DNA of 62,854 nucleotides from Nitrospira sp. (GTDB taxonomy: Bacteria; Nitrospirota; Nitrospiria; Nitrospirales; Nitrospiraceae). Location of the stretch: contig JACOEL010000025.1 of assembly GCA_024998625.1 (NCBI GenBank), positions 1 through 62,854 on the forward strand. Reading direction: 5' to 3'. Under the pieces are notes generated by a model. That model saw nothing but the letters and a program-made list of their open reading frames with translations. It searched no databases and was not told the origin of the DNA. Shown here one piece after another: positions 2,980 to 34,146 of the stretch; within the stretch, counting starts at the first letter, position 1; every line of letters begins with the position of its first letter. A program made the translations under genes and the position numbers.

Positions 2980-3002
2980 GCAACGTTTAAGGAGGGTTGA
3001 GT

Positions 3003-3716: not shown

Positions 3717-3740
3717 TCCAGTTATGGACAAGGAGTTCTC

Positions 3741-4064
3741 ATGTATCTCGTAGCCGATATTAGTGTTGAGATCTGTGCCGCCAAGAGCTGTAAGCTGTGC
3801 ACTCAATATTGCCCGGAAGCCAATACCATTTTGTATAGCGATGAAATGGGCAAGGATAAGGGGTTCAAGTACGGCTCGGCTTATGTGGCGGTAGATCGGT
3901 GCAAGGGCTGCGCGCAATGCGTGTGGGTCTGTGACAATATGGCAAAGAACAACGCCATTAAAATGATCATGATCGATCAGCTGCCGGTTGCAGCGTTGAC
4001 GGATAACATTACCTATGGGGAAAAGAGCACGACGGCGACATTGGTCAGCCCCGTGGTTGGGTAA
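3741..4064 (+). CDS. porD: 2-oxoacid:ferredoxin oxidoreductase, delta (ferredoxin-like) subunit
   Basis: This is a 107-residue protein with two cluster motifs: Cys12, 17, 20, 24 (CAAKSCKLCTQYCP) and Cys54, 57, 60, 64 (CKGCAQCVWVC). It is expected to hold two [4Fe-4S] clusters that pass electrons between external ferredoxin and the TPP centre. The first motif is atypical, with four residues between its first two cysteines. A ribosome binding site (aaggag) precedes the ATG. The about 40-residue tail after the second motif has no Cys. Confidence 0.82.
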   Translation: MYLVADISVEICAAKSCKLCTQYCPEANTILYSDEMGKDKGFKYGSAYVAVDRCKGCAQCVWVCDNMAKNNAIKMIMIDQLPVAALTDNITYGEKSTTATLVSPVVG

Positions 4065-4085
4065 TTGCACGAAAGGGGAACGGGC

Positions 4086-4850
4086 GTGGGAACGACGCAA
4101 GATACGAGAGAACGGATTATCGTGCCGGGACCGGCAGGGTTCCATCCACCGTCAGCGGCTCAGCTGGGAGTCTCGCTCCCAGACCCTGGGCAGGGACTGT
4201 ATTATGGCTTGCTGGAGCCCAATGAAGACACCGTGATCGAAGAGATGGCTCGAAAGATGTTGACGAGCCAGAATGCGACCATTTTCCCGGGTCCTCTGGT
4301 CTTGTGGGCGTGGAACAACCATGCTGTAGAAAAGGCGCAAGCCGTTCTTGAAATTGCGGCCCAGATCCCAGACGTGATGATTATCCCCATGCCGGATTAT
4401 CGTCCCAAATACCCCAAAATCGACCCAGAAGAGGTGATCAACCCGAACCATCCGAATCTCACGATTTGGGGTAACAAGATTGAAGCCTGTATTTTTATCG
4501 GTGTTCACTGTCACTATGCCAATCTGACGCTGAAAATGATCCGGGCGGGGACGAACTGCTGCACCATGGCAATTTGTGCCGAGCAAGGGCACGAGGACGC
4601 CATGCTGACGATTCGCGATTCGGATACGTTGAAGCTGAAGAAGACTGCACAAATCTTCAAGAAGGTTCGCGAGGAAATGGGCATTAAACTTCCGGATAAT
4701 GGCGAGAACGTCCGATTCACTGGGACTCAATCCAAGGTCCATGATGGAAAGACGCACACGAATCCTATGACCTTTATGCCCTCTGCTGCAGGGGTAGGCA
4801 GCGCGGCTACATTTGGCCACTCGGCTGAACAGATGAAGCGAGAAGGCTAA
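4086..4850 (+). CDS. porE: epsilon-type subunit of the 2-oxoacid:ferredoxin oxidoreductase (CO dehydrogenase beta-like family)
   Basis: The 254-residue product resembles the extra subunit found in five-subunit oxidoreductases of Hydrogenobacter and Nitrospira, often labelled CO dehydrogenase beta subunit family. Visible features are GPLVLWAWNNHA near residue 70, FIGVHCHYANLTLKMIRAG and NCCTMAICAEQGHEDA. I chose the GTG at 4086, nine bases after GAAAGGGG, over a TTG at 4065. It sits between porD and porA, which supports a role in the complex. The biochemical role of this subunit is not known to me. Its neighbouring cysteines (CC) could bind a metal. Confidence 0.72.
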   Translation: MGTTQDTRERIIVPGPAGFHPPSAAQLGVSLPDPGQGLYYGLLEPNEDTVIEEMARKMLTSQNATIFPGPLVLWAWNNHAVEKAQAVLEIAAQIPDVMIIPMPDYRPKYPKIDPEEVINPNHPNLTIWGNKIEACIFIGVHCHYANLTLKMIRAGTNCCTMAICAEQGHEDAMLTIRDSDTLKLKKTAQIFKKVREEMGIKLPDNGENVRFTGTQSKVHDGKTHTNPMTFMPSAAGVGSAATFGHSAEQMKREG

Positions 4851-4888
4851 GGTTTTAGGCTAAGGCGATACAGTCAAGAGGTGCAACG

Positions 4889-6235
4889 ATGAGCGAAGCA
4901 TTGGAACCCAAACAAAAAACCAATCCGCAGGGCGACCCTACTACGAGCGTGTCGGCTCCCAAGGCCGAGACCAAGAAGGATCCGCACGCGGATGCGAAGC
5001 GGCAGAAGGTTGTCACTCCTGAGTATATGTTCCTGGAAGCTCCTCGAACGAAGGAATTCATCACCGGCAGCGAGGCCGCAAAAGAGGCTATACGCCGGTC
5101 AAACGTCGATCTTGCCATTGCCTACCCCATTACCCCCCAAAGTGAAACCATGCAGTTGGTCGGTGTGTTGTATGGTGAGGGGTACGTCAAGGAATATTAC
5201 CGTGGCGAAGAAGAAGTCGGCGTCATGGCGGCTATCGCCGGCGGGTCACGAGCGGGAGTTCGTTGTTATACGGCAACAGCCGGTCCAGGAACGCTGAGAG
5301 GGCTGGAAGGGATTGCTTCTTGGCCAGGGCACCGGCTACCAGTTGTGGCCATGTTCACTTGCCGAGTGGTGAATGCACCATTGGCCATTCAACCTGACAA
5401 CATCGAAGTTTCTTATCTGCTCAATTGCGGCATGATTGTGTTCCATGCCGAAAATCAGCAGGACATGTATGATTTCACGTTGGCTGGGTTTGTTATCAGC
5501 GAGAAGAATGATGTGACCCTGCCCGTCGGCGTGTGCTGCGACGGGTTTTTTGTGACGCACGCCCGTGGCTATGTACGTATGCAAGATCGTGGGATGAAGC
5601 TTCCCCCGCGCGAACCTTGGCGTGGAGCGGTGCCGGTGCTTGATGCTGAGAATCCTCCGGCACGACTCTCTCGCGACGCCCCCGTTCAGAAGTCCAATTT
5701 CATGGCCTATAACATTCACGCGGTGTGGCAGCAGGAAGTCTGGGCTGCGGTTGAGCGTTCCCGTAAGTACATCAACCAGTACATGGGCGGATTACTCACG
5801 GCTGAGAATGTGGATGATGCAGAGGCGGTTATTATCGCTTCAGGTAGTGCCGCTGCTCAATCACGCGAAGCGGTCCGTATTTGCGCCGAAAAAGGCATTA
5901 AGATCGGCCTGATCAAGATCCGATCGCTCCGCCCATTCCCGACTCAGGAATTGCGCAAACTCTGCGGGAAAGCCAAATTAATTGTTGTGCCTGAATTCAA
6001 CTATGTCGGATGGTTGGCAAAAGAAGTGGCGACTGCTATTTACGGTTTCTCAAATGCCAAGATTATCGGTGGCCCGAGAGTGTATGGTGGGCAGTCTATG
6101 CCAGTGGAATTGATCGTTGACGAAGTCGAGTCGGGGTTGACTGGGAAAAAGTCGACCAACGTAGCAATTTCACAAGTTATGGGCGCATCAGCTGCTGATC
6201 ATGAGGCCATGGGGCATTTCATGCGCAGCATTTAG
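4889..6235 (+). CDS. porA: 2-oxoacid:ferredoxin oxidoreductase, alpha subunit
   Basis: The alpha subunit binds the pyrimidine end of thiamine diphosphate and the 2-oxoacid. After a charged, low-complexity N-terminal extension of about 60 residues come ITGSEAAKEAIRRSNVD, YPITPQSETMQ, EYYRGEEEVGVMAAIAGGS and TATAGPGTLRGLEGIASW, all typical of PorA/KorA. A C-terminal transketolase-like region (SLRPFPTQELRKL) follows. A ribosome binding site (agaggtg) precedes the ATG. It closes the operon and is followed by a strong hairpin. It may be pyruvate- or 2-oxoglutarate-specific; related bacteria carry both versions. Confidence 0.87.
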   Translation: MSEALEPKQKTNPQGDPTTSVSAPKAETKKDPHADAKRQKVVTPEYMFLEAPRTKEFITGSEAAKEAIRRSNVDLAIAYPITPQSETMQLVGVLYGEGYVKEYYRGEEEVGVMAAIAGGSRAGVRCYTATAGPGTLRGLEGIASWPGHRLPVVAMFTCRVVNAPLAIQPDNIEVSYLLNCGMIVFHAENQQDMYDFTLAGFVISEKNDVTLPVGVCCDGFFVTHARGYVRMQDRGMKLPPREPWRGAVPVLDAENPPARLSRDAPVQKSNFMAYNIHAVWQQEVWAAVERSRKYINQYMGGLLTAENVDDAEAVIIASGSAAAQSREAVRICAEKGIKIGLIKIRSLRPFPTQELRKLCGKAKLIVVPEFNYVGWLAKEVATAIYGFSNAKIIGGPRVYGGQSMPVELIVDEVESGLTGKKSTNVAISQVMGASAADHEAMGHFMRSI

Positions 6236-10396: not shown

Positions 10397-11596
10397 ATGG
10401 CGAAAGTGCTGGAAGGTCCCGGGATGGGGCTGATGAAGAAGTGGGGAATCAATGTTCCCAACTATGTGGTCGTCACCTCCGTAGACGAGTTGACCAGGCT
10501 GGGTCAAGCCAATGAATGGTTGAAACGGTCCAAGCTTGTTGCGAAGGCACATGAGGCTCTCGGGTCGCGCTTCAAGTTGGGATTGGTCAAGATCGATCTG
10601 GACTTTAAGGCGGCGGAAGCCGCTACGAAAGAGATGATCGGTCGTCAAGTCGGCAGCATCACCGTGACTCAGGTGATCATCTCTGAGATGATCCCGCACA
10701 AGGAAGAATATTATTGCGCGGTGAAATCCACGCGCGAAGGCAGTGAGATCCTGGTTGCCAATTGCGGCGGGATCGAAGTCGAATCAAATTGGGAACGTGT
10801 CAAACGGTTGTGTCTTGAGATCGGACAATCTCCCTCTCCTGAATCCCTCGAAAAACTGTCGAAAGAGGCAGGATTTAGCGGAACACTCGTGAAGAAGATG
10901 GCTGAGTTTGCAGGGAAAATGTTTGCCTGCTTCGACAGTGAAGATGCGCAGTATCTCGAGGTGAATCCGGTCGTCCTTCGTGCCGCCGATGAAGAGCTGG
11001 TGGCGCTTGATGCTGTGACATTGCTCGACGGCGATGCCAAATTTAGACATCCGGACTGGAATTTCGCTTTTGCGGCGGAATTTGGCCGTGCCTATTCCAA
11101 GCAAGAGCTTGAGGTAATGGCTGTCGACAGCAAAATTAAGGGTTCAGTTAAATTCATCGAAATTCCTGGTGGGGATACGGCGATGTTGCCGGCGGGTGGT
11201 GGTGCCAGCGTGTACTACTCAGATGCGGTCGTGGCGCGTGGCGGCAAGTTGGCCAATTATGCCGAATACTCCGGTGATCCACCTGATTGGGCCGTCGAGG
11301 TCCTCACGGAAAAGGTCTGTTCTCTGCCGGGTATCCGGAACATCATTGTCGGTGGTGCGATCGCCAATTTCACCGACGTGAAGAAGACGTTCGGAGGGAT
11401 CATCAACGGTTTCAGGAAAGCGAAGTCCGAAGGGAAGTTGAAGAACGTAAAGATTTGGGTGCGTCGCGGTGGGCCGCGAGAAAAAGAGGGGCTTGATGCG
11501 ATGCGCGCCTTGAAAGAGGAAGGCTTTGACATCAATGTCTTCGACCGCAATACACCGCTCACCGACATTGTCGACAAGGCACTCCAAGCGAAGTAG
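10397..11596 (+). CDS. aclB: ATP-citrate lyase, beta (small, ATP-grasp) subunit
   Basis: With AclA this enzyme cleaves citrate to acetyl-CoA and oxaloacetate using ATP and CoA, a diagnostic step of the rTCA cycle. The 399-residue protein matches the small subunit of Chlorobium-type enzymes in length and layout: a SucC-like ATP-grasp part (MAKVLEGPGMGLMKKWGI, then YLEVNPVVL) and a CoA-ligase-like part (IPGGDTAMLPAGGGASVY). A glycine-rich IIVGGAIANFTDVKKTFGG segment lies near residue 310. AclA follows 42 bp downstream. The assignment is firm. Confidence 0.94.
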   Translation: MAKVLEGPGMGLMKKWGINVPNYVVVTSVDELTRLGQANEWLKRSKLVAKAHEALGSRFKLGLVKIDLDFKAAEAATKEMIGRQVGSITVTQVIISEMIPHKEEYYCAVKSTREGSEILVANCGGIEVESNWERVKRLCLEIGQSPSPESLEKLSKEAGFSGTLVKKMAEFAGKMFACFDSEDAQYLEVNPVVLRAADEELVALDAVTLLDGDAKFRHPDWNFAFAAEFGRAYSKQELEVMAVDSKIKGSVKFIEIPGGDTAMLPAGGGASVYYSDAVVARGGKLANYAEYSGDPPDWAVEVLTEKVCSLPGIRNIIVGGAIANFTDVKKTFGGIINGFRKAKSEGKLKNVKIWVRRGGPREKEGLDAMRALKEEGFDINVFDRNTPLTDIVDKALQAK

Positions 11597-11638
11597 CCTG
11601 CCGCCCATGACCAACCGAAGATAAGGGGAGATCCCGAG

Positions 11639-13459
11639 ATGAGTATTCTGGCAAACAAAGACACTCGTGTAGTGATCCAAGGTGGTCAAGCCGGTGTCAA
11701 CGCTGCCCGCCGCATGGCTGAGTTCTGTTATCTCATTAAGCGTCCGCTCAATGTTGAGGCGTTTGTCTATCCACCCGATGCCGGCAAGAGCAATGAGATC
11801 CCATACGGCAGCGGCCTGATTGCCATTCCGGTTTACAAGTCCATTGCTGAAGCCACCAAGCATCATCCGACCCTGAATACCAGTCTCGTATACATTGGCG
11901 CAGACCGTGCGATGAAGGGTGGTATGGAGGCGCTGGACGATTCTCGCATCAAGGTGGTCTCCATGATCACCGAGGGCGTGCCGGAAAAGGATGCCAAGAT
12001 TCTTGGCGCTCATGCGCGCAAGTTAGGGAAGGTCTTTAATGGTCCCTCATCCATTGGTATCATCTCTGCTGGAGCGTGTCGGCTTGGCGTGATTGGCGGT
12101 GCGTTCGACAATCTTGTTCTATCTAAGCTTTATCGCGAAGGATCGTTCGGTGTCATCACCAAGTCCGGCGGTCTCTCGAACGAAATCATTTGGATCTGCT
12201 CTCAATTTGCCGACGGGATCACGACAGCTATCGGTATCGGCGGTGATGCCTATCCAGGCACCGATTACGTCAGTTATCTCGAGATGTTCGAGAACGATCC
12301 CCAAACGAAGGCGGTCGTTATTGTGGGAGAGATGGGCGGCGATCTCGAAGAGCGCGCCGCAGAATGGTATGGTGCGAAAAAGCGGCGAGTGAAGTTGATT
12401 GCAGTGGTCTCAGGCTTCTGTCAGGAGAGTTTGCCGAAGGGGATGAAATTCGGTCATGCCGGCGCGAAAGAGGGTATGAAGGGTGAAGGATCAGCTCGCT
12501 CCAAATCCGATGCGCTGAAGAAAGCTGGCGCCCTCGTGCCGCCAACCTTTGGCGCGCTTGGTCCTGCCATTAAGGAAACTTATCAGGATCTCTTGAAGTC
12601 CGGCCAGGTCAAGGAACCGGTCGAGCCGGCTACGTTGCCCCGGTTACCAAAAACCGTCGAAGAGGCGATGAAGGCTGATGAGGTCATGGTCTCGCCGCTG
12701 ATCCGTACGACCATCAGTGATGACCGCGGCGATGAGCCCTGCTACGATGGATATCCTGCCTCAGAGCTGATTAACAAGGGCTACGAAATTCCTCACGTCA
12801 TCGGTCTTTTATGGGACAAGCGGCTGATCTCGAAGCAGGAAGCCGAGATCATTAAGCGCATCATGATGCTTTCCGCTGATCATGGTCCCTGCGTGAGCGG
12901 CGCCTACGCAACAATTCTCGCGGCTTGTGCTGGGATTGGGCTGTCGCAATCAGTTGCCGCAGGCATGATTATGATTGGTCCGCGCTTCGGCGGTGCGGTC
13001 ACTGATGCCGGACGATTCTTTAAGTATGCTGTCGATAACAAGATGTCGGTCGACGAATTCTTGGCCTACATGAAGAAAAACCATGGTCCAGTCCCTGGTA
13101 TCGGTCATCGAGTGAAAAGTCTGCGCAACCCGGACAAGCGTGTGAAGGAGTTGGTTGGATATGTGAAGAGCTTGAATATCAAGACTCCCTGTCTGGACTT
13201 CGCGCTTGAAGTGGAAAAGATTACCTCCGTGAAAAAAGACAATTTGATTCTGAACGTCGATGGGACCATGGCGGCCGTCCTAGTTGATATTGGTTTCCCT
13301 GTGGATAGCTTGAACGGATTCTTTATTCTTTCCAGGACGATTGGATTAATTGGCCACTGGGTCGATCAGAAACGTCAGGATAGTCGCCTGATTCGGCTAT
13401 TTGATTACCTGGTGAACTACGCGGCACCCAAGAGGCGGGAAGTTCCGCCGTTGAAGTAA
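11639..13459 (+). CDS. aclA: ATP-citrate lyase, alpha (large) subunit
   Basis: The 606-residue large subunit has a SucD-like N-terminal half ending in FGHAGAKEG, where His273 should be phosphorylated during catalysis. A citrate-synthase-like C-terminal half follows, with PRFGGAVTDAGRFF and GPVPGIGHRVKSLRNPD. Together they carry the phospho-His, citryl-CoA and cleavage chemistry. Length matches the 608-residue Chlorobium protein. The ribosome binding site is ggggag. The two-subunit bacterial form, rather than the fused eukaryotic form, is typical of Chlorobi, Aquificales and Nitrospira. Confidence 0.95.
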   Translation: MSILANKDTRVVIQGGQAGVNAARRMAEFCYLIKRPLNVEAFVYPPDAGKSNEIPYGSGLIAIPVYKSIAEATKHHPTLNTSLVYIGADRAMKGGMEALDDSRIKVVSMITEGVPEKDAKILGAHARKLGKVFNGPSSIGIISAGACRLGVIGGAFDNLVLSKLYREGSFGVITKSGGLSNEIIWICSQFADGITTAIGIGGDAYPGTDYVSYLEMFENDPQTKAVVIVGEMGGDLEERAAEWYGAKKRRVKLIAVVSGFCQESLPKGMKFGHAGAKEGMKGEGSARSKSDALKKAGALVPPTFGALGPAIKETYQDLLKSGQVKEPVEPATLPRLPKTVEEAMKADEVMVSPLIRTTISDDRGDEPCYDGYPASELINKGYEIPHVIGLLWDKRLISKQEAEIIKRIMMLSADHGPCVSGAYATILAACAGIGLSQSVAAGMIMIGPRFGGAVTDAGRFFKYAVDNKMSVDEFLAYMKKNHGPVPGIGHRVKSLRNPDKRVKELVGYVKSLNIKTPCLDFALEVEKITSVKKDNLILNVDGTMAAVLVDIGFPVDSLNGFFILSRTIGLIGHWVDQKRQDSRLIRLFDYLVNYAAPKRREVPPLK

Positions 13460-13573: not shown

Positions 13574-18077
<4,504 letters not shown>

Positions 18078-18155: not shown

Positions 18156-18866
18156 ATGGCACAAGAAGACACTAACGTGATCGATCAGCCGGAAGTGCTG
18201 CGCCACAAAATGGTGACGATTGAAATCTCCGGTAAGAAATATGAAGTGCCGGAAGGTATCACCGTCATCAAAGCATTGTGGCATACGGGTCAGGAGGTAG
18301 TGCGCGGAGCTGGTTGTCTCGGCGGGTTCTGTGGGGCCTGTGCGACCTACTATCGAACCAAGGATGATCCGAAGGTTCGGACCTGCTTGGCTTGCCAGAT
18401 GGCTGTGGAAGACGGCATGTCTTTCACCATCATGCCACCGTTTCCTGCTCGTAAGGCTCTGTATGACATCCAGTCGCTCAAAGATCCGAAGCAAGACCTC
18501 TTCAATCTCTATCCGGAAGCGCCACTTTGCCGCAATTGCAATGCTTGTACAGAAGCCTGCCCTCAGAAAATCGATGTGCGGGAAGGGGTGTGGAAGGCAG
18601 TGTTCGGTGATTTCAAGAGCGTCTCTGAGATGTTCATGGATTGCGTCATGTGCGGGATGTGCACGCCGGTGTGTATTGCCGACATCGCTCCCAATCTGGT
18701 CGCCCTGTACGTGAGCCGGGCGCAAGGTGCTCATTTCACCGAGAAACCGCAGGGGCTGGAAATCCGTATCAAGGAAATTCAAGACGGCCGTTTCAACGAT
18801 GAATGGAACAAAGTGCTCGCAATGAACGAACAGGAGCTGGCCGACCACTGCGCGACAGTGAAGTAA
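18156..18866 (+). CDS. fumarate reductase/succinate dehydrogenase-like iron-sulfur subunit
   Basis: The N-terminal domain has a plant-type [2Fe-2S] site (Cys54, 59, 62 in GCLGGFCGAC, and Cys77). Two motifs of the form C-x2-C-x2-C-x3-C follow, at Cys125-135 and Cys163-173. Classical FrdB/SdhB has C-x5-C-x3-C at the last site, which holds a [3Fe-4S] cluster; here the spacing predicts two [4Fe-4S] clusters. The flavoprotein gene follows after 69 bp, so the pair forms an electron-transfer unit. No membrane anchor gene is beside it. A heterodisulfide-reductase-like or soluble fumarate reductase role is possible. Confidence 0.72.
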   Translation: MAQEDTNVIDQPEVLRHKMVTIEISGKKYEVPEGITVIKALWHTGQEVVRGAGCLGGFCGACATYYRTKDDPKVRTCLACQMAVEDGMSFTIMPPFPARKALYDIQSLKDPKQDLFNLYPEAPLCRNCNACTEACPQKIDVREGVWKAVFGDFKSVSEMFMDCVMCGMCTPVCIADIAPNLVALYVSRAQGAHFTEKPQGLEIRIKEIQDGRFNDEWNKVLAMNEQELADHCATVK

Positions 18867-18935
18867 TGCCTCGTACCGTCCGCCGGTCTCGGGCAGATAT
18901 GCCCGAAGACTGCGCTCCGTGTTGAAAGTGAAACC

Positions 18936-20537
18936 ATGGATATTCACGCACTCCAACAGATTGTCCACCAGACTCGGGACGCTCGCCGTAAACAGACTAT
19001 CCCGAAGTTCTCCCCTGCCGATCGCGACCAGCTGATCCACAAATATCATCCTGATTATCGCACGAGCGCCTATCGTCCGATTCGATTTGGCCCGAACGCG
19101 AACGACAAGACGGTCGTCGAACTCGCTGCCCTTCTTGAAGGTGATAGCTCAATCGCAGACAATATTGATCTGGCCCCACACTACACCACGGATGTTTTGG
19201 TCGTTGGCGGCGGCGGTGCCGGGTGTGCGGCGGCGTTGCATGCTCATGGTACCGGTGCGAAGGTGATTCTTGCCACGAAGCTGCGACTCGGGGACTCCAA
19301 CAGTGTGATGGCTCAAGGCGGGATGCAGATTTCCGTTGCGCCGGAAGATTCTCCGGTCACCCATTTCCTTGACACACTCAAGGGTGGCCATATGCAGAAC
19401 GACCACGAATTACTCAAAGTCATGGTCGAGGATGGGCCTTCCATTGCCAAGTGGTTAATTGAATTGGGCGTACTTTTTGACCGGCAGGCCGATGGTAATC
19501 TGCACGTCAAGAAGGGGGGTGGGAGTTCTAAGCCGCGCCTTCTGACTTGCTCGGACTACACTGGGCTCGAGATCATGCGCGTCCTCAAAGACGAGGTGTT
19601 GAATCAAAAGATCCAACTTCTCGAATTCTGCGCCGCAGTGGAGTTGCTCAGTGATGACCATGGCCATTGCACGGGGGCGATCTTTAAGGATCTCGATAAC
19701 CACCGGCACGTCGTGGTAGCTGCGAAGTCGGTGATTCTTGCGACCGGCGGAATCGGTCGGCTCCATATTCAAGGCTTTCCCACCAGCAACCACTACGGCG
19801 CCACCGGTGACGGGTTGTGCCTCTCGTATCGCATGGGTGCGAAGCTCGATCACATCGATACGTTCCAATATCACCCGTCAGGAGCGGTCTATCCCGAGCA
19901 ATTGATCGGCGCGCTAGTGACTGAGGGGATCAGGTCGGAGGGTGGCCATCTCGTGAACGCTAACGGTGAGCGATTTGTGAATGAGCTCGATACCCGTGAT
20001 GTCGTCTCCTCCTCCATTATTCGTGAGTGCGAGGAGGGCCGTGGTATTCGCACCATGTCTGGTCGCGTCGGTGTGTGGTTGGATACACCGTTGCTCGATG
20101 CAGAGCATGGGCCTGGAACAGTAGAGAAACACTTTCCTGCCATGATGATGCAGTTCGAAAGATTTGGCATCGACATCAGTAAGGACCCTGTGCTCATTTA
20201 TCCGACATTGCACTATCAGAATGGCGGAGTGAAAATCGATGCAAATTCAGAAACCAACGTCAAAAATCTCTTCGTCGCCGGAGAAGCTTCCGGGGGATTG
20301 CATGGACGGAATCGATTGATGGGCAACTCGCTGCTTGACCTCATGGTATTTGGAAAGCGATCAGGTCTGACCGCAGCGTCGCGCGCCGGATCCATGCCGC
20401 AAGGGAAGCTCACGCTTCAACATCTGCAACGATTCCGAGCGGAGGCCAAGAAGCATGGCAGCCCCAGCGGTGTCATCTCTCCGATGATTCTCCCCGCCTA
20501 TACGCGAAAAGAACCAGAGCGTACGGTGAATGGCTGA
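18936..20537 (+). CDS. fumarate reductase/succinate dehydrogenase-like flavoprotein subunit
   Basis: An FAD-binding motif (VLVVGGGGAGCAAALHAHG) lies near residue 88, preceded by an unusual 80-residue N-terminal extension. MAQGGMQISVAP is the FAD-linked stretch of this family. HPSGAVYP and the active-site-like TEGIRSEGGHLVNANGERF match Frd/Sdh flavoproteins, as does LFVAGEASGGLHGRNRLMGN. At 533 residues it is shorter than most. With the Fe-S subunit upstream it would reduce fumarate to succinate in the rTCA cycle. The electron donor is not evident. Confidence 0.78.
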   Translation: MDIHALQQIVHQTRDARRKQTIPKFSPADRDQLIHKYHPDYRTSAYRPIRFGPNANDKTVVELAALLEGDSSIADNIDLAPHYTTDVLVVGGGGAGCAAALHAHGTGAKVILATKLRLGDSNSVMAQGGMQISVAPEDSPVTHFLDTLKGGHMQNDHELLKVMVEDGPSIAKWLIELGVLFDRQADGNLHVKKGGGSSKPRLLTCSDYTGLEIMRVLKDEVLNQKIQLLEFCAAVELLSDDHGHCTGAIFKDLDNHRHVVVAAKSVILATGGIGRLHIQGFPTSNHYGATGDGLCLSYRMGAKLDHIDTFQYHPSGAVYPEQLIGALVTEGIRSEGGHLVNANGERFVNELDTRDVVSSSIIRECEEGRGIRTMSGRVGVWLDTPLLDAEHGPGTVEKHFPAMMMQFERFGIDISKDPVLIYPTLHYQNGGVKIDANSETNVKNLFVAGEASGGLHGRNRLMGNSLLDLMVFGKRSGLTAASRAGSMPQGKLTLQHLQRFRAEAKKHGSPSGVISPMILPAYTRKEPERTVNG

Positions 20538-20621
20538 GGGCGGCTGGTCTGTGCAAGCCACCGCGCTGGGATTCACGCTCTACGTCATTTGTCATGGGCC
20601 ACTAGCTCTTATGAGGATTCA

Positions 20622-21800
20622 ATGAACGTTCATGAATTTCAGGCCAAGCAATTGTTCGCACAGTTTGGGGTTCCGGTGCCGAGGGGCAAGGAAATTACCT
20701 CACCCGAGGCAGCTACTGCCTGGGCAAGTGAACTGAATACTCCGGTCTTCGTGGTGAAAGCTCAGATCCATGCGGGTGGGCGTGGCAAGGCCGGTGGCGT
20801 CAAAATTACGAAAGACAAGGCGGCTGTCGCAGGACTCGCCAAGGAGTTGATCGGCAAAACCTTGATCACCCACCAGACTGGACCGAAGGGGAGAAAGGTT
20901 CATCGGCTGTTGCTCGAAGAGGGCGCCAATATTGCGAAAGAGTTATACCTGAGCATTCTTGTTGATCGCGACACCGGTTGGCCGACGTTTATCGCCAGCA
21001 CCGAAGGCGGGATGGAAATCGAAGAGGTGGCTGAAAAGACTCCGGAGAAGATTATCAAAGAAGCGATCGATCCAGCCGTTGGATTTCAGGGGCACAATGG
21101 GCGCAACGTCGCTTTTGCATTGGGATTGCAGAGGATGGAGCCGGCCGTCATCAATCCCTTCGTGCAGATGCTCGGTAATCTCTATCGCTTGTTCATGGAG
21201 AAACACGCAGCGCTCGTTGAGATCAATCCGTTGATTATCACCAAGGAGAAAACCTTGGTAGCATTGGATGGCAAGGTCTCATTTGACGACAACGGCGTTT
21301 TCAAGCATGACGATGTTCAGAAAATGCGGGATCTCAATGAAGAGGATCCGCTAGAAATCGAAGCGACGGCGAACAATCTGAATTACGTCAAGCTTGACGG
21401 CAACATCGGCTGCATGGTGAACGGCGCCGGTCTTGCGATGGCCACTATGGATGTCATCAAGCTGGCGGGCAGCGAGCCGGCGAACTTCTTGGATGTGGGC
21501 GGCGGAGCCACGAAGGACACGGTGGCAGCCGGATTCCGGATTCTGCTCAAGGACCCGAATGTGAAAGGTATCTTTATCAATATCTTCGGTGGCATTGTAC
21601 GGTGTGAGCGCATTGCGCATGGTGTGATCGAAGCTGCCAAGGAAGTGAAAATTACCGTGCCATTAGTGGTGCGTCTCCAAGGTACGAATGCAGATGAAGG
21701 CCGCAAACTTTTGGCAGAGTCTGGCCTCAAGTTGGAAGTTGCCAACGATCTGTGGGAAGCGGCGCAGAAAATTGTGAGGCTGACCGGCAAGGCGGCGTAA
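20622..21800 (+). CDS. sucC: succinyl-CoA synthetase, beta subunit
   Basis: SucC provides the ATP-grasp domain of succinyl-CoA synthetase. [20 protein letters not shown] is the family start and fixes the ATG at 20622, although a longer frame runs from 20589. [12 protein letters not shown] and the C-terminal [16 protein letters not shown] are also diagnostic. Length (392 aa) is normal. SucD follows after 11 bp. In the rTCA cycle the enzyme consumes ATP to make succinyl-CoA for the 2-oxoglutarate step. Confidence 0.95.
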
Positions 21801-21811
21801 AGGAGAAGACC

Positions 21812-22684
21812 GTGAGCATTCTCGTCAACAAGAATACGCGAGTGGTGGTGCAGGGGATCACAGGGAAGGAAGGGTCCTTTCACGCGACGCAATGCAAAGC
21901 CTATGGTACGAAGATGGTTGCCGGGGTGACCCCTGGCAAGGCCGGACAGGAAGTTGAGGGCATCCCCGTCTTTAACACCGTGGCCGATGCCGTGAAGAAG
22001 ACCGACTGCGACACTTCTTTGATTTTTGTACCGCCGCCATTCTGTGCGGATGCGATCCTGGAAGCCGCTGATGCGGGCGTCAAACTGATTATCTGCATCA
22101 CCGAAGGCATTCCGGTGAATGATATGGTGAAGGTGAAACGTGCGCTGCATGGACGTGATGTCCGATTGATCGGTCCGAACTGCCCAGGCGTCATCACAGT
22201 GGATGAAGCTAAGATCGGGATCATGCCCGGATTTATCCATAAACGTGGCGTAGTTGGCGTAGTGTCGCGCAGCGGCACCTTGACGTATGAGGCCGTTCAT
22301 CAACTGTCGACGTTGGGGCTGGGAGAAACGACTTGTGTGGGAATTGGCGGTGATCCCGTCAACGGCACGGGATTCGTCGACGTCTTGCCCTTGTTCGAAA
22401 AAGATTCTGAAACACAGGCGGTCGTGATGATCGGCGAAATCGGTGGCGATGCGGAAGAGAAGGCAGCCGAATATATTAAGAAGTACGTCAAGAAGCCAGT
22501 AATTAGTTTCATTGCCGGGATCACCGCCCCGCCAGGGCGCCGGATGGGGCATGCGGGCGCCATCATTTCAGGCGGCAAAGGGACGGCAACGGAAAAAATG
22601 AAGGCGCTAGAAGTTGCCGGTGTCCGAGTCGTGAAGAATCCCGCTGAAATCGGCCACGCCGTAAAGGCGGCCCTCGGTCGCTAG
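21812..22684 (+). CDS. sucD: succinyl-CoA synthetase, alpha subunit
   Basis: SucD binds CoA and carries the phospho-His, seen as His247 in [17 protein letters not shown]. The N-terminal [20 protein letters not shown] is typical. I chose the GTG at 21812 because AAGGAG lies just upstream; the longer frame from 21752 would overlap sucC. 290 residues is the standard length. A strong terminator follows, so it ends the rTCA transcription unit. Confidence 0.95.
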
Positions 22685-22702
22685 TCAGGTGTCTCTTCTT
22701 AG

Positions 22703-22735
22703 GAGGGCGTCGGATCTGATCCGACGCCCTCTTTT
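22703..22735 (+). terminator. intrinsic terminator after sucCD
   Basis: A 12-bp GC-rich stem (22703-22714 with 22720-22731) and a 5-base loop are followed by TTTT. This is a textbook Rho-independent terminator. The next 250 bases before the radical SAM gene show no gene. Confidence 0.9.
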
Positions 22736-24946: not shown

Positions 24947-25093
24947 TTTTCGAGCCTCCTCGGAATCGGGGGCCGACATCCTTCGGAATAAGCCGGCGAT
25001 CCGCCACGGGCTCCTGTCGGAGCCGTCCGCGACACAGGTCCTCGTTCATTTTCGGTCGGGTACCGCCTCCATGTTGTTGTGGAGGAGGGACCG

Positions 25094-26656
25094 ATGCCAG
25101 CGGAGCGAGTGACCATGCGACAGATCAAAGACATCCTTCGACTCAAATGGGCCTGTGGGCTCAGTAACCGGCAAGTGGCGGCCAGTTGTGGGGTGGCGCG
25201 CAGCACGGTGGCCGAGACCTTGTATCGCGCCACGGCGGCCGGATTGTCGTGGCCGTTGCCGGAGGATCTGGATGACGCGCAGCTGGAAACCCGGCTGTAT
25301 CCCACCGCGCCGTCGCCGACCGGCCCGCCGCGGGCCATGCCGGATTGGGCGACCGTGCATCAGGAATTGACGAGGAAAGGCGTCCCCCTGGCGCTGCTGG
25401 GGCAGGAGTATAAGGCGCAGCATCCCGACGGCTATCAGTACAGCCGTTTTTGCGATCTCTATGGCGCCTGGCGGGCCACCCTGGATCGGTGTCTGCGCCA
25501 GGAACATCGTGCCGGCGAGAAACTCTTCGTCGATTATGCGGGCCAGACCGTGCCGGTCCAGGACCGGCAGACCGGCACGGTGCGACCAGCCCAGATCTTC
25601 GTCGCCGTCCTGGGCGCGTCGAACGATACCTACGCCGAGGCGACCTGGACGCAAACGCTACCCGATTGGACCGGGTCCCATGTCCGGGCCTTCGCCGCGT
25701 TCGGCGGCGTGCCGGAGATCGTCGTGCCCGACAACTTGCGGAGCGGTGTCACCACGGCCTGTCGGTATGAACCGGAGCTGAACCCCACCTACGCGGATCT
25801 GGCCCGGCACTATGGGGTCGCGGTGATTCCGGCCCGCGTCCGCAAACCGCGGGACAAGGCGAAAGTCGAAGCAGGCGTCCTGTTGGTGGAGCGATGGCTC
25901 CTCGCCCGGCTGCGCCATCAGCCCTTCTTCAGTCTGGCGGAGTTGAATGCCGCGATCGCCGCCTGCTTAGACCGACTGAATCGCCGTCCCTTCAAGACAC
26001 TCCCCGGCTGTCGGCAGTCGCAGTTTGAGGCCGTGGACCGGCCGGCCCTGCAGCCGCTCCCGCTCGAGCCGTACGTCTAGGCCGAGTGGCGGACGGCGCG
26101 GGTCAATATCGATTCGCATCTCGAGGTCGAGGGCCACTACTACAGCGTCCCGTCGCCGTTGGTCCATACGGCCCTCGACGTGCGGCTGACCGTGACCACG
26201 GTCGAGTGCTTCCACAAGAGCCAGCGGGTGGCGAGCCATGTGCGGAGCGCCGAGCGTGGCCGGCACACCACGGTCGCCGCGCATCTCCCGTCGTCGCACC
26301 AACGGTATCTGGCGTGGTCGCCGTCACGGCTCATCCAGTGGGCCGACACCATTGGGCCCGCCACGGCGGCGGTGGTGAACACGCTCTTGACCCGCCGCCG
26401 GCATCCCGAACAAGGCTACCGGTCCTGTCTGGGGATTCTCCGGCTCGGCCGCGAGTACGGCCCGAGGCGGCTGGGAGCGGCCTGCCACCGCGCGCAGGCC
26501 CTGGAGGCGTTCGCCTACAAGAGTGTCCAGTCGATCCTCAAGACCGGGCTCGACCAGCAGCCGCTCTCCGAACCGATCCCGACGGTCCCGCTGCCGAGCA
26601 CCCACGATCATCTGCGCGGCACCACCTATTACCAACCCCACGAAGGAGGAGTCTGA
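25094..26656 (+). pseudogene. istA: IS21 transposase IstA interrupted by an amber codon
   Basis: The DDE transposase has an N-terminal helix-turn-helix (GLSNRQVAASCGVARSTVAE), then catalytic Asp in LFVDYAGQTV, Asp in IVVPDNLRSG and Glu in KAKVEAGVLLVERWLL. An in-frame TAG at 26078-26080 follows the catalytic domain. The same frame then resumes as AEWRTARVNIDSHLEVEGHY, which is the family's usual continuation, to 26656. The missing residue is probably Tyr (PYVYAEW in relatives), one base change from TAG. The start follows GGAGGAGGG. The upstream part (328 aa) would be made as a truncated protein. Confidence 0.88.
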
Positions 26657-27420
26657 TGTTACGTCATCCCACACTCGCCGCCCTGGAGGCCCTGAAGCTC
26701 ACCGGCATGGCCGCCGCCCTGATGGAACAACTGGCGATGCCTGAGGTGCAGCGGCTCAGCTTCGAGGAACGGCTGGGACTGTTAGTCGATCGCGAGTGCA
26801 CGGTCCGGGACAACCTCCGGTTGGCGCGGCGGCTGGCCCAGGCTCGGTTCCCCGGCAGCGCCACGCTGGAAGATCTCGATTATCGCCATCCCCGGGGCCT
26901 CGACAAAAGCGTGATCGCGTCCCTGGCCACGGGTCAGTGGATTCGCCGTCATGACCATGTGTTGATTGTGGGGCCCACTGGAGCGGGAACAACGTACCTG
27001 GCTTGTGCGTTGGCGCAGATGGCCTGTCGGCTGGGGCTCTCCGCCTTGTATCTGCGACTCCCGCGGTTCTTCCGGGAACTCGCGATCGCCAAAGGCGATG
27101 GCCGCTATGGGCGCGTGCTCCGGAGTCTCGCCAAGACCGACCTCGTGGTCCTCGATGACTGGGGCTTGGCTCCCTTAACCGACGAGCATCGCCGCGATCT
27201 CTTGGAACTCCTCGATGATCGCCATGGACGTCGGGCCACCCTCGTGGCCAGTCAACTCCCGATCGATCACTGGCATGCGGCGATCGGGGAGCCGACGCTC
27301 GCCGATGCCATTCTTGACCGGCTCGTGCACAATGCCTATAAGCTCACGTTGAAAGGAGAATCGATGCGCAAACGGTTAGCCAAAGCAGACGGAAGTCGGC
27401 CACTCAAGACCGAGCACTGA
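26656..27420 (+). CDS. istB: IS21 helper ATPase IstB with a defective Walker A motif
   Basis: IstB is the AAA+ helper that selects targets with IstA. The 254-residue product overlaps the istA stop by one base (TGATG). It has the N-terminal IstB region (LEALKLTGMAAALMEQL) and an intact Walker B, LVVLDDWGLAPL. Walker A reads GPTGAGTT, where the family has GKT or GKS: the essential Lys is replaced by Thr (codon ACA). This should abolish ATP binding, so the protein is probably inactive although the frame is open. Confidence 0.88.
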   Translation: MLRHPTLAALEALKLTGMAAALMEQLAMPEVQRLSFEERLGLLVDRECTVRDNLRLARRLAQARFPGSATLEDLDYRHPRGLDKSVIASLATGQWIRRHDHVLIVGPTGAGTTYLACALAQMACRLGLSALYLRLPRFFRELAIAKGDGRYGRVLRSLAKTDLVVLDDWGLAPLTDEHRRDLLELLDDRHGRRATLVASQLPIDHWHAAIGEPTLADAILDRLVHNAYKLTLKGESMRKRLAKADGSRPLKTEH

Positions 27421-30519: not shown

Positions 30520-31956
30520 ATGAACGATAAACCCGATGCAGCATCCGATGTGAGCGCATCCGCTCCGCGCACTTCCGGCCTTGGTTGGGAGGAGTTTTCG
30601 CGCGAGGTCGTGGATTTTTTTGCTTCGATCAAGCTGGCGATGTTTCTATTCATTGTGCTCGCCATGACCGCGACGATCGGCACGGTCATTCAGCAGGGCG
30701 AGCGCCCGGAAACCTATGTGCAGGAATATGGAGAAGAAGCCTATCGCTGGTTCCTACGATTGGGTTTTACCGATGTCTATCACACCTGGTGGTTTACCAG
30801 TCTGCTGGGGCTCCTGTGCGTCAATTCTCTCACTTGTTTCCATAAACGGTTTCCCAGTGTATGGCGGTCCATGCGTCAGGATAAGGTCAGTGTGTCGCTG
30901 GCGTTTATCCAGGGTATGAAGCAGCAGACCACCCTTTCGCTCAATCAATCGAGAGACGCCGTGGCTGAGAGACTTGTAAAACTCTTCGCTGAAAAAGGTT
31001 ATCGGGTGCTGGCCAAGAGCGATCCCGGCGAGGTGACGGTCTACGCGACCAAGGGGATTATGGGTCGGGTCGGCGCGCATGTAGCCCACCTCAGCGCCAC
31101 GGTCATTGTGCTCGGGGGGCTACTGGGTAGCTATTATGGGTTTCAGGAGTTCGGGGTGTGCCTCGAAGGACAAACTTACCACATCCCGCGTGGCAACTTT
31201 GATCTTCGTGTCGATAAGTTCTGGATCGATTACCATGAGAACGGATCGGTAAAATCCTACAACAGCACCTTGACCGTGATCGACCAGGGCACTCCCACCA
31301 CAACCAAGACGATTACGGTGAACGATCCCTTGGTCTACAAAGGGATCTGGTTTTACCAATCCAGCTATGGGGATGCGTGGGATCAGATCGAGGCGGCTCG
31401 AATCAACATTAAGGAGAAGGGCAGCGACAAGATTATCGCTACGGTCGATCTGGAATGGAATAAGGAAAAAGCCGTCGACGGACTTCCATTGAAGATGAAG
31501 ATGACGGATTTTGTTGCCGACTTCGCGTTTAATTCGACCGAGAAGAAGGTGTTTTCAAAAACCGCGGAGCATGCCAATCCCGCGATTCGGCTGGCGGTTG
31601 ATGAGCGGAGTAGTGTGCAGTCCACTCCCTGGGTCTTTTATCATTATCCCGACCTCTTTGAGATCAAGGACTCCGCATACCAATTCGAATTCATTGGATA
31701 TCAGCCGAAGAAGTTTACCGGGCTGCAGATTGCCAGAAACCCTGGCATCAATATGGTCTGGATCGGGTGTACGATGCTCGTGGTGGGCATGACTTTGTCG
31801 TCGCTGATTTATCATCGGCGGTTATGGGCGAAGATCATTCCCGGCGAGTCCGGTGTCACGCTCCATCTTGGCGGAACAACGCACAAAAGCCAGATTGATT
31901 TCCAGAAAGAGTTCAGGAAGTTGACGGAAAAAATTAACGCCCAGGCTCAATCATGA
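30520..31956 (+). CDS. resB: cytochrome c biogenesis protein ResB/Ccs1
   Basis: ResB and CcsA form the System II haem export and cytochrome c ligation complex in the cytoplasmic membrane. The 478-residue product has an N-terminal membrane segment (LAMFLFIVLAMTATIGTV, about 41-58), GVLQ-like EYGEEAYRWFLRLGFTDVYHT and a second segment near residue 95. A third lies near 185 (HVAHLSATVIVLGGLLG), and a large extracytoplasmic domain leads to a last segment near 415-435. This layout fits the family. CcsA follows in the same operon. Confidence 0.9.
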   Translation: MNDKPDAASDVSASAPRTSGLGWEEFSREVVDFFASIKLAMFLFIVLAMTATIGTVIQQGERPETYVQEYGEEAYRWFLRLGFTDVYHTWWFTSLLGLLCVNSLTCFHKRFPSVWRSMRQDKVSVSLAFIQGMKQQTTLSLNQSRDAVAERLVKLFAEKGYRVLAKSDPGEVTVYATKGIMGRVGAHVAHLSATVIVLGGLLGSYYGFQEFGVCLEGQTYHIPRGNFDLRVDKFWIDYHENGSVKSYNSTLTVIDQGTPTTTKTITVNDPLVYKGIWFYQSSYGDAWDQIEAARINIKEKGSDKIIATVDLEWNKEKAVDGLPLKMKMTDFVADFAFNSTEKKVFSKTAEHANPAIRLAVDERSSVQSTPWVFYHYPDLFEIKDSAYQFEFIGYQPKKFTGLQIARNPGINMVWIGCTMLVVGMTLSSLIYHRRLWAKIIPGESGVTLHLGGTTHKSQIDFQKEFRKLTEKINAQAQS

Positions 31957-32033
31957 AGATCGCTGCCGCGCGACCGAGAGCAACAGTTCATTCGGTCTGC
32001 GCTGCACGCTAGGATAGACAGACGGAGGTCCGT

Positions 32034-32948
32034 ATGATGCGATCACTGTTCCTATTCGATATGACGTTCTGGCTGTATTTAGCCGCGTTAGGGTTGTATG
32101 TGGCCTATCTGTTCGCAAAACGTCCTGCCATGCAGATGATTCCGGCCGGGCATCCGATAGAAGACCTTGAAGGACGTGATGGAGCATGGGCCACACAATT
32201 GGGGCAGGTGGCAACGCTCGTCACCGTGTTCGGGTGGGTGCTGAACACGGTGGCCCTTACGACGCGGGCATTTGAGCGAATGGAGCATTCAGGTACCTTC
32301 GCGCCCTGGTCCAACCAATTCGAGGCAATGGCCTATGTGTCATGGGCCATTATCCTGGGCTACGTGCTTCTCGAATTCCGCTACAGGATCAAGGCTGTCG
32401 GTGCCTTTGTGGTGGGAATCGGGTTTATTGCCATGGGCGCCGCATCGCTCCTGCCCTATCGATACCAGACGGCAGAGCCGCTTGTTCCGGCACTGAACAG
32501 CTACTGGATCTACATCCATGTCTCCGTCACGCTGACCAGCTACGCGGCATTTGCCATGGCCGGTGGATTGGGCCTGATGTATCTCTTCAAAGAACGGGCG
32601 GTCAATCGTGGCAGTCAATCGCGGTTTTATGCCGCCTTTCCCGATCTCGAAACCATCGATGAGCTTGGCTATAAGGCGATCATGCTGGGATTTCCCCTGC
32701 TGGCTTTCGGGATCATTCTCGGAGCGATGTGGGCGAACTATGCCTGGGGCGGGTACTGGAGTTGGGATCCCAAGGAGACCTGGTCGTTGATTGTATGGCT
32801 GATCTATGGCGCCTATATTCATGCTCGCATGACGCGAGGGTGGGAAGGCCATAAAGCGGCGATCTACGCGATCTTTGGATTTCTCATGGTCATTTTCTGC
32901 TTCTGGGGGGTGAATTTTCTGCTCTCCGGTCTGCATGCCTACGCCTAG
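32034..32948 (+). CDS. ccsA: cytochrome c biogenesis protein CcsA (haem-handling)
   Basis: This is an integral membrane protein of about eight helices with the Trp-rich haem-handling signature WGGYWSWDPKETWSL near residue 240. This motif faces the outer side and presents haem to apocytochromes. Length (304 aa) matches System II CcsA rather than CcmF. It follows resB and precedes two thioredoxin-like genes and ccdA, a complete thio-reduction and ligation set. It is needed for any c-type cytochromes of the respiratory chain. Confidence 0.92.
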   Translation: MMRSLFLFDMTFWLYLAALGLYVAYLFAKRPAMQMIPAGHPIEDLEGRDGAWATQLGQVATLVTVFGWVLNTVALTTRAFERMEHSGTFAPWSNQFEAMAYVSWAIILGYVLLEFRYRIKAVGAFVVGIGFIAMGAASLLPYRYQTAEPLVPALNSYWIYIHVSVTLTSYAAFAMAGGLGLMYLFKERAVNRGSQSRFYAAFPDLETIDELGYKAIMLGFPLLAFGIILGAMWANYAWGGYWSWDPKETWSLIVWLIYGAYIHARMTRGWEGHKAAIYAIFGFLMVIFCFWGVNFLLSGLHAYA

Positions 32949-32951
32949 ACT

Positions 32952-33575
32952 ATGACAGATTACATCAACCAGAGATCTGCTCATACTGCGCCGCGAACCG
33001 GCCCGTCCCGTATCCTCGTGGTAATTGCCGCTGCGGCCATTTTGGGCGTGATGTTTCTCGTAGTCTGGCTACAGAGTTCCAAGTATGAGCCATTGATAGT
33101 GGGCAAAGAGGCGCCGGACTTTCAATTACCCGACTTAAACGATAAGCAACTGCGGTTATCGGACTATCGCGGCAAAGTGGTCTTCTTGAATTTCTGGGCG
33201 ACTTGGTGCAAGCCGTGCCGTGAAGAAATGCCTTCAATGGAAGTGTTGTACAAGAACTTTGAGAAGGACGGCTTGGTAATTTTGGCGGTCAGTATTGACC
33301 GGGTGACGACGAAGAAAGAAATACCCCCGTTCGTGAAGGGTTTGAACCTCACGTTTCCCGTATTGGTTGATTCCTGGGGCCAGACCGACAAGCGCTACAA
33401 ATTGATGGGAGTTCCCGAAACTTACATCATTGATCAGCAGGGCGTTCTGCGTGAAAAAGTGATCGGGCCTCGGGATTGGACACGACTGGATAACCTCAAG
33501 GTATTGACCCAACTCCTCAAGCCCGCAGAGAAGGCCGCCCATGCGCCCCCTGCTCAGGCGCTTCCAGCGTCGTAA
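32952..33575 (+). CDS. membrane-anchored TlpA/ResA-type thioredoxin
   Basis: A single N-terminal helix (about residues 22-41) anchors a thioredoxin domain to the outer face of the membrane. The active site reads FWATWCKPCREEMPSME. EAPDFQLPDL and VPETYIIDQQG (cis-Pro region) are typical of ResA, which reduces the Cys pair of apocytochrome c before haem attachment. It starts 3 bp after the ccsA stop. A second thioredoxin gene follows at once. Confidence 0.88.
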   Translation: MTDYINQRSAHTAPRTGPSRILVVIAAAAILGVMFLVVWLQSSKYEPLIVGKEAPDFQLPDLNDKQLRLSDYRGKVVFLNFWATWCKPCREEMPSMEVLYKNFEKDGLVILAVSIDRVTTKKEIPPFVKGLNLTFPVLVDSWGQTDKRYKLMGVPETYIIDQQGVLREKVIGPRDWTRLDNLKVLTQLLKPAEKAAHAPPAQALPAS

Positions 33576-33577
33576 CG

Positions 33578-34144
33578 GTGATGATGACTCGTTGCTCAAT
33601 ACTCTTTATGGTTGGTGCGGTTATGATGCTCTGTGGAGGATTTTCTGCAGACGCCCGCGAGGCATTGTTTTCCTCGCCGGCCATGCCGATGCTGGTCGTC
33701 GAGCGCATTCCTCAGGTCGACGAAGAGGCGCCGAATTTCCTGTTGAGGGACTCCGAGGGGTTCAACGTCACGCTCGATCAGTTTCGAGGGAAAGTCGTGC
33801 TCTTGAATTTCTGGGCGACCTGGTGCGGGCCCTGCAAAATCGAGATGCCGGCGATGGAGCGACTGTATCGAAGCTTCAGTCGCAAGGATTTTGAGATTCT
33901 TGCAGTCTCGACCGACGCCCAGGGTGCAGCGGTGACCCGTCCCTTTCAGCGCGAAGTCGGTTTTACATTCCCGGTGCTCCACGATGCCGATTTTCGTATC
34001 GGGCTCCAATATGGCGCGCGTCAGCTCCCGATGACGTTTCTGATCGATCGCAAGGGCATCATTCGCAACCGGATTCCAGGGGCCAGAGACTGGAGCGCTC
34101 CTGCGGGGAAGCGTCTGGTTGAATCGCTGTTGCAGGGGTCCTGA
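33578..34144 (+). CDS. secreted TlpA-type thioredoxin
   Basis: A signal-peptide-like start (CSILFMVGAVMMLCGGFSADA) leads to a thioredoxin domain with FWATWCGPCKIEMPAME and the cis-Pro region LPMTFLIDRKG. A Cys in the signal region could make it a lipoprotein, but the lipobox is imperfect. The start is ambiguous among GTG 33578, ATG 33581 and ATG 33584. It may be a paralogue of its upstream neighbour with a different partner, for example haem-ligation intermediates versus CcdA relay. Confidence 0.82.
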   Translation: MMMTRCSILFMVGAVMMLCGGFSADAREALFSSPAMPMLVVERIPQVDEEAPNFLLRDSEGFNVTLDQFRGKVVLLNFWATWCGPCKIEMPAMERLYRSFSRKDFEILAVSTDAQGAAVTRPFQREVGFTFPVLHDADFRIGLQYGARQLPMTFLIDRKGIIRNRIPGARDWSAPAGKRLVESLLQGS

Positions 34145-34146
34145 GC

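Follow-up and report, generated by a model that had tools for sequence, protein, structure and literature searches.

A FrdAB pair in the reductive TCA operon of Nitrospira, a probable soluble fumarate reductase with a candidate low-potential electron donor

Introduction

Members of the genus Nitrospira fix CO2 through the reductive tricarboxylic acid (rTCA) cycle during O2 respiration. The closest described counterpart of the enzyme treated here comes from Leptospirillum ferriphilum, for which Levican et al. (2008) reported frdA and frdB in an rTCA operon together with sucCD and without a known membrane anchor, described covalent flavin adenine dinucleotide (FAD) and ubiquinol, assigned the enzyme to type E and proposed orf1 as its anchor (PMC2607301). 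In this study, we analyzed a frdB-frdA pair (positions 18156–20537) on contig JACOEL010000025.1 of Nitrospira sp. (assembly GCA_024998625.1); the window is this entire contig of 62,854 bases, out of a 4.42-Mb genome. We consider it rather probable (roughly 0.6) that FrdAB is a soluble, one-way fumarate reductase of the rTCA cycle, fed by a soluble low-potential carrier and not by the quinone pool.

Covalent FAD is required for succinate oxidation, and a fourth cysteine converts a [3Fe-4S] cluster into a [4Fe-4S] cluster of lower potential. In methanogen thiol:fumarate reductase (TfrAB), the TfrB subunit carries a CCG domain, and Hydrogenobacter thermophilus reportedly possesses a soluble NADH-dependent fumarate reductase whose subunits, FrdA-E, are encoded by scattered genes. 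The account of the ‘succinate operon’ of Pseudoclostridium thermosuccinogenes is said to go back to a preprint of Koendjbiharie and van Kranenburg from 2019. In that operon the fumarate reductase is tied to Flx-Hdr proteins (PMC7282089), and in tubeworm symbionts and Thioflavicoccus a putative tfrAB lies in the aclAB cluster, interspersed with flxABCD-hdrABC (PMC6315080). Both the Leptospirillum pair with its missing anchor (2008) and Hdr/Flx-linked fumarate reductases were thus already known. In Nitrospina, which has type B and type E complex II, electrons from the quinone pool have been proposed (PMC3578206), and in Nitrospira moscoviensis the expression of a single flavoprotein gene, NITMOv2_0695 (‘SdhA or NadB’ by annotation), far exceeds that of complex II (PMC6606698). 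The parts considered of PMC9560492 and PMC5596200 contain nothing on the electron donor, and those of PMC10579370 and PMC13049253 do not mention fumarate.

Results

The frdB and frdA genes lie between icd and sucCD in the order aclA-aclB-acn-icd-frdB-frdA-sucC-sucD, all on the plus strand, and aclAB-like or sucCD-like genes share the FrdAB locus in 17 of the 20 Nitrospirota loci compared (in L066 and partly in L067 the picking of open reading frames (ORFs) failed on GC-rich DNA, so neighbors are under-called there). The position is the one expected of a fumarate reductase within the rTCA cycle. Leptospirillum likewise has this pair beside sucCD in its rTCA operon, and we infer that the gene order of four of the loci (L064, L065, L071, L072) is the one described for the Leptospirillum cluster.

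FrdB, the iron-sulfur subunit, is encoded by a 236-residue ORF at 18156–18866 with Fer2_4 and Fer4 dicluster domains. Its [2Fe-2S] site (Cys54, 59, 62 and 80; 18315–18395) is followed by two C-x2-C-x2-C-x3-C motifs, at residues 125–135 (18528–18560) and 163–173 (18642–18674). The original prediction had regarded both of these sites as departures from classical FrdB; the motif is indeed present at both, but E. coli FrdB, placed side by side, carries it at the first site as well, so that only the second departs. At the second site, the present FrdB has CVMCGMCTPVC where E. coli FrdB has CTFVGYCSEVC, and hence the [3Fe-4S] pattern, C-x5-C-x3-C, which recurs in E. coli SdhB and in the type-B SdhB of another Nitrospiraceae genome, is not matched. 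The extra second-site cysteine is also present in the type-E SdhB of the same genome. Because the 12 cysteines of the [2Fe-2S] site and the two complete motifs are invariant across 27 aligned FrdB rows, and both full motifs occur in 85 of 85 FrdB rows, the double motif is not a matter of chance. Judged from the cysteine motif, FrdB would hold two [4Fe-4S] sites, a trait shared with type-E succinate:quinone reductases and quinol:fumarate reductases. The structure nearest to the predicted C-terminal part of FrdB was HdrC (8rwn_C, Z 11.8, root-mean-square deviation (rmsd) 1.9, 86 residues), and that nearest to the N-terminal part was NuoG of complex I (7nz1_G, Z 9.9, rmsd 2.5, 74 residues). The whole-chain model matched SdhB weakly (2h89_B, TMq 0.29), perhaps owing to a domain orientation that is off in the model.

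FrdA, the flavoprotein subunit of 533 residues (18936–20537), matches FAD_binding_2 with 282 bits over residues 86–466, and all of the E. coli residues H232, E245, R248, R287, H355 and R390 are kept, which completes the catalytic His/Arg/Glu set. The predicted extension of about 80 residues at its N-terminus was borne out: residues 1–82 (18936–19181) precede the Pfam FAD domain, are conserved, with HPDYR and GPN among the conserved stretches, and are predicted to be folded (mean predicted local distance difference test score of 83–93 per ten-residue block over residues 1–80). The model of FrdA fits E. coli FrdA over residues 80–517 (1kf6_A, Z 36.6, rmsd 3.7, 425 residues; residues 67–518 in the structural alignment by VIA-align). 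At the other end, a short C-terminus (residues 487–533; 20394–20534) takes the place of the helical and C-terminal domains, which are largely missing, as judged from Pfam, the structure match and alignment. FrdA has no Pfam match to Succ_DH_flav_C, and in the alignment with E. coli K-12 FrdA and SdhA no ESRGAH-like motif was found, since the chain stops before that domain.

By alignment and pattern, Asn122 (19299–19301) replaces the histidine to which flavin is covalently attached. Asparagine occupies this position in 91 of 91 FrdA rows (80 by pattern, 11 by alignment), a count that is partly selected in that 70 of the rows were drawn from the GTDB genome set by a scan in which one of the two search patterns held this very asparagine; the 21 Nitrospirota rows were retrieved through FrdB, and the count there is free of the bias. 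Asparagine is also found at this position in NadB. The FAD of FrdA is therewith predicted to be bound non-covalently, at odds with the covalent FAD described for Leptospirillum.

None of the curated families listed for the two proteins accounted for the pair. Among the best 25 of 54 NCBIfam families, FrdA exceeded no cut-off; its best match was TfrA (370.5 bits, cut-off 718), and it scored 309.8 bits against NadB (TIGR00551, cut-off 452.75) and 306.2 bits against SdhA/FrdA (cut-off 567.3). Controls from the same genome passed, with 771.3 bits for SdhA (TIGR01812), 239.6 for SdhB (TIGR00384, cut-off 88) and 543.3 for NadB. FrdB passed none of the seven families listed for it (20.4 bits for TIGR00384; 29.9 bits for TfrB, cut-off 385), and none of five FrdA proteins scanned from the family passed a listed cut-off. 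Methanogen TfrAB is therefore near only in that TfrA heads the FrdA matches, far below its cut-off, and FrdB differs from TfrB in showing no CCG domain in Pfam. Compared with quinol:fumarate reductases of types A to D, the catalytic set is kept while the [3Fe-4S] pattern and the covalent-flavin histidine are missing. Type-E SdhABE shares with FrdB the second [4Fe-4S] site that replaces [3Fe-4S], whereas FrdA lacks the flavin histidine and the C-terminal domain, and an SdhE partner is unsupported (see below).

No frdC or frdD gene adjoins frdBA, as had been predicted, and a search for separate anchor genes turned up no fitting one among Sdh_cyt (PF01127), SdhE, an FeS-cytochrome b561 protein and orf1. 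The genome itself encodes SdhA on contig C4, and SdhB (C9:67273–68244) and an HdrB/SdhE-like protein (C9:56101–57000; scored at 231.5 bits by the MFR anchor SdhE model, which has a cut-off of 500) on contig C9; these scattered genes on two contigs presumably form a type-E succinate dehydrogenase. The sdhB and sdhE genes lie about 10 kb apart on C9, and the two genes are 10–11 kb apart in each of five further genomes of the genus that were checked. Across 295 Nitrospirota genomes, FrdB was detected in 140 (including 78 of 79 tabulated genomes from the same genus and family), SdhE in 127, SdhB in 139 and HdrA in 134. SdhE accompanied FrdB in 84 of the 140 FrdB-positive genomes and was absent from the other 56 (E 1e-20), and the 112 FrdB-positive genomes of the same class comprised 75 with both SdhE and SdhB, one with SdhE only, five with SdhB only and 31 with neither. 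SdhE adjoins SdhB in 38 of 48 genomes, which were chosen from 103 with both genes as the strong SdhE matches outside the family plus ten of the genus and family; HdrB-like matches of less than roughly 180 bits, some of them perhaps genuine HdrB, were omitted. SdhE thus follows SdhB rather than FrdAB. By co-occurrence and adjacency, SdhE/HdrB was rejected as a hidden third subunit of FrdAB, and an HdrB-like subunit conserved in step with the pair, the finding that would have spoken against the original prediction, did not emerge.

The remaining candidates fared no better. HdrA was matched neither in the genome itself nor in any of the 112 FrdB-positive members of its class, with the top four candidates scored per genome, and was found in 4 of 28 FrdB-positive genomes outside the class; since the operon genes also include no HdrABC/FlxABCD gene, Hdr/Flx coupling was rejected for the class. 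An FeS-cytochrome b561 partner was not found in the genome among the at most seven candidates scored per genome, and it was rejected as the anchor with a strong match in only one of the 295 genomes (G219) and three weak ones elsewhere. The orf1 product of Leptospirillum belongs to the PsiE family (30 bits against a cut-off of 23.9) and has matches in 110 of the 295 genomes. Its homologues in the present genome lie unlinked on C9, and none was detected in FrdB-positive complete genomes such as G145, G147 and G202; orf1 was accordingly rejected as the anchor and, in contrast to the proposal for Leptospirillum, is not supported as a general partner.

Nine genomes without SdhE each contain an FrdA of 90–92% identity, a second homologue of 36–39% and a third, weaker one. 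At six loci the third homologue is an SdhA of 637 residues or a longer ORF with the flavin histidine present; five of them have an SdhB whose second site is classical, four have an sdhC-like gene alongside (by eye), and one of the SdhA proteins, with 916.7 bits, exceeds the cut-off of the B. subtilis-type model (541.35). In these six loci, other Nitrospiraceae carry type-B sdhCAB in place of type E. FrdAB hence coexists with a succinate dehydrogenase of either type. By elimination among the three FAD homologues of the nine genomes, NITMOv2_0695 of N. moscoviensis is probably FrdA.

The scan of the GTDB genome set returned at least 581 relatives, from which 80 loci were kept, 70 with a resolved FrdA ORF and ten left out; the kept loci outside the phylum span Clostridia, Chloroflexota, Thermodesulfobacteriota, one archaeon and others. 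Genes resembling Hdr or Flx occur within about 7 kb of FrdA in 40 of the 70 resolved loci, and HdrA-like genes in 33. Each neighbor cluster took its name from a single member scanned with NCBIfam; for cluster 4 (‘FlxC?’), NCBIfam gave no match and Pfam gave Fer4 alone. In clostridial relatives, a homologue of the FlxA-like NAD(P)H-flavin reductase neighbors FrdAB. The Nitrospira pair has the traits of the family with Hdr/Flx neighbors, namely the N-terminal extension, the flavin-site asparagine, the short C-terminus and two full FrdB motifs, and clostridial loci arranged like the P. thermosuccinogenes operon, which we likened by arrangement only, carry the same FrdA and FrdB families. The rTCA Nitrospirota differ from this clostridial type in lacking HdrA and in having their own FrdB clade: in the 85-row tree, a 100/100 branch separates the 26 rTCA FrdB rows from the other 59. 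Compared by description, the tfrAB of tubeworm symbionts and Thioflavicoccus shares the aclAB cluster with our locus, but flxABCD-hdrABC is interspersed there.

Other arrangements were also found. In three loci (L069, L074, L075), FrdAB is accompanied by fumarase and a protein of 309–326 residues with four CxxC motifs and two to four predicted membrane segments, which in L069 consists of Fer4 and cytochrome b561 in Pfam; these loci may represent a membrane-linked wiring of the same family. Several Chloroflexota loci have a soluble Fer4 protein of about 150 residues in place of the FeS-membrane protein, and in L080, L083 and L103 of this phylum the neighbors of FrdBA are fumarase, a small protein of Fer4 type and, by eye, a gene resembling acyl-CoA dehydrogenase. 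Since Hdr/Flx-like neighbors are common in other phyla, the electron-input side is modular, and since relatives are wired to Hdr/Flx-like or FeS-membrane proteins, the catalytic pair alone cannot dictate the donor. Across the family, a single catalytic pair appears to be combined with interchangeable modules for electron input. We make no claim as to whether the Hdr-linked or the orphan form is older, because the root of the FrdA tree, a quick-mode computation in which both outgroup branches are very long, is unreliable.

The surrounding window contains further rTCA genes. Upstream of frdBA, a 2-oxoacid:ferredoxin oxidoreductase cluster (2080–6235, plus strand) was assigned by family matches to beta, POR gamma, a small Fer4 protein, a 261-residue PF02552 protein and alpha. 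The PF02552 gene (4065–4850) matches CO dehydrogenase beta/ACS epsilon with 126 bits, and may encode the known fifth subunit of 2-oxoacid:ferredoxin oxidoreductase. There follow, on the same strand, ATP-citrate lyase aclA and aclB (10397–13459), aconitase (13574–15820), monomeric isocitrate dehydrogenase (15831–18077) and, after frdBA, succinyl-CoA synthetase sucC and sucD (20589–22684), all identified by ORFs or Pfam. A terminator-like hairpin of 15 pairs (22701–22733, plus strand) directly 3’ of sucD is likely to mark the operon end, although the consensus scan gives predicted sites only, with 19 in the window against 15.3 in shuffles. Downstream of the operon and a radical SAM gene sits an IS21-type insertion sequence (25079–27420), composed of an integrase-core ORF (25079–26080) and an ORF (26086–27420) with a strong IstB match over residues 199–431. 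A cytochrome c maturation cluster (30520–34893) comprises ResB-like (30520), CcsB (32034) and ResA/TlpA-like thioredoxin genes (32952, 33578) and, at 34147, a gene for a protein with weak DsbD-like matches.

Discussion

We propose that electrons would enter FrdB at the C-terminal [4Fe-4S] pair and pass via its [2Fe-2S] cluster to the non-covalent FAD of FrdA, where fumarate would be reduced to succinate. The path is drawn by analogy with complex II, and we infer both solubility and direction. The donor would most likely be reduced ferredoxin, from the same pool that feeds the 2-oxoacid:ferredoxin oxidoreductases, and the reverse direction would be run by a separate succinate dehydrogenase, type E here and type B in some relatives. 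Non-covalent FAD together with the fourth cysteine would make a one-way enzyme driven by a low-potential donor, and quinol would be a poor donor because nitrite respiration should keep the quinone pool oxidized. Since Pfam shows no separate domain for binding NAD(P)H or quinone in either FrdA or FrdB, a soluble carrier is left, for which ferredoxin is the likeliest choice. Of what had been predicted, solubility and independence from quinol are supported by exclusion, and a low-potential donor would fit the [4Fe-4S] pair and the predicted FAD binding.

Several points weigh against this reading. The donor is assigned by exclusion, and its identification with ferredoxin is the weakest step, one to which we would give somewhat less than even odds. 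Spending ferredoxin on fumarate seems wasteful in a nitrite oxidizer that makes ferredoxin by reverse electron flow, given potentials of −0.5 V or lower for ferredoxin and +0.03 V for fumarate (PMC3578206), and ubiquinol was taken as the donor of the Leptospirillum enzyme (PMC2607301). FrdA has a weak Pyr_redox_2 match above the cut-off (34.8 bits) over the FAD Rossmann region, which we read as a shared fold and not as an NAD(P)H site. Relatives are membrane-linked (L069, L074, L075) or Hdr/Flx-linked, so a partner could be encoded elsewhere; Sdh_cyt (PF01127) had no match in the genome, but this model covers only some anchor types and the type-B cytochrome b558 anchor was not searched there, and HdrA scoring was limited to the top four candidates per genome. 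Even inside the phylum the input side is variable, because tandem frdB occurs in 7 of the 20 loci, in deeper Nitrospirota (L059, L060, L061, L062, L063, L066, L067). The two C-x2-C-x2-C-x3-C motifs are complete in both tandem copies, and the second copies group in a fast-evolving clade of their own (100/99).

The main rival to a ferredoxin donor is an NAD(P)H-linked fumarate reductase, in which a separate diaphorase encoded elsewhere, with distant extra subunits, passes electrons to FrdB as in Hydrogenobacter thermophilus. It has an rTCA precedent, for which Aquifex, with FrdA-E of scattered gene numbers, is a further example (PMC10052474), and the FlxA-like homologue near the clostridial FrdAB would suit it. 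The annotated loci show no conserved diaphorase gene in the operon, however, HdrA is unmatched in the genome, and the Hydrogenobacter enzyme was set beside ours by description only; on balance we hold this explanation to be unlikely, though worth serious attention. Two [4Fe-4S] sites in FrdB would equally suit a type-E-like quinol:fumarate reductase, with the SdhE-like protein on C9 as its third subunit. The sub-threshold score of that protein (231.5 bits) lends this some weight, but SdhE adjoins SdhB in 38 of 48 genomes, the genome's own SdhB itself has the type-E motif, 56 of 140 FrdB-positive genomes lack SdhE at E 1e-20, and the only SdhE-like gene among the 20 Nitrospirota loci (L070) belongs to an HdrCBA cluster and not to an rTCA one, which makes such an enzyme improbable.

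Still less can be said for the view that FrdAB acts chiefly as a succinate dehydrogenase or in the manner of L-aspartate oxidase. The flavin-position asparagine is common to NadB, and the N. moscoviensis gene of this sort is annotated as SdhA or NadB (PMC6606698); yet a NadB and an SdhA, both above the family cut-offs, are encoded separately in the genome, FrdAB lies in the rTCA operon, and fumarase genes stand beside it in several relatives, so we regard this as very improbable. Flavin-based electron bifurcation with HdrABC/FlxABCD, as proposed for the clostridial relatives, would be in keeping with the Hdr/Flx-like genes near FrdA in 40 of 70 outside loci. With no HdrA match in the genome or its FrdB-positive class (top four candidates scored) and with the rTCA FrdB clade set apart by a 100/100 branch, we give it hardly any credence here.

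We therefore return to a soluble FrdAB fed by a low-potential carrier, which makes the pair a candidate for the rTCA fumarate reductase, distinct from succinate dehydrogenase, and turns the question of its donor into a testable one. A more specific and doubtful version, offered tentatively, is that the rTCA Nitrospirota have in FrdAB a ferredoxin:fumarate oxidoreductase of two subunits, the catalytic core of the family left without its Hdr/Flx or cytochrome b561 input modules. If so, aerobic nitrite and iron oxidizers would be able to reduce fumarate whatever the state of their quinone pool.

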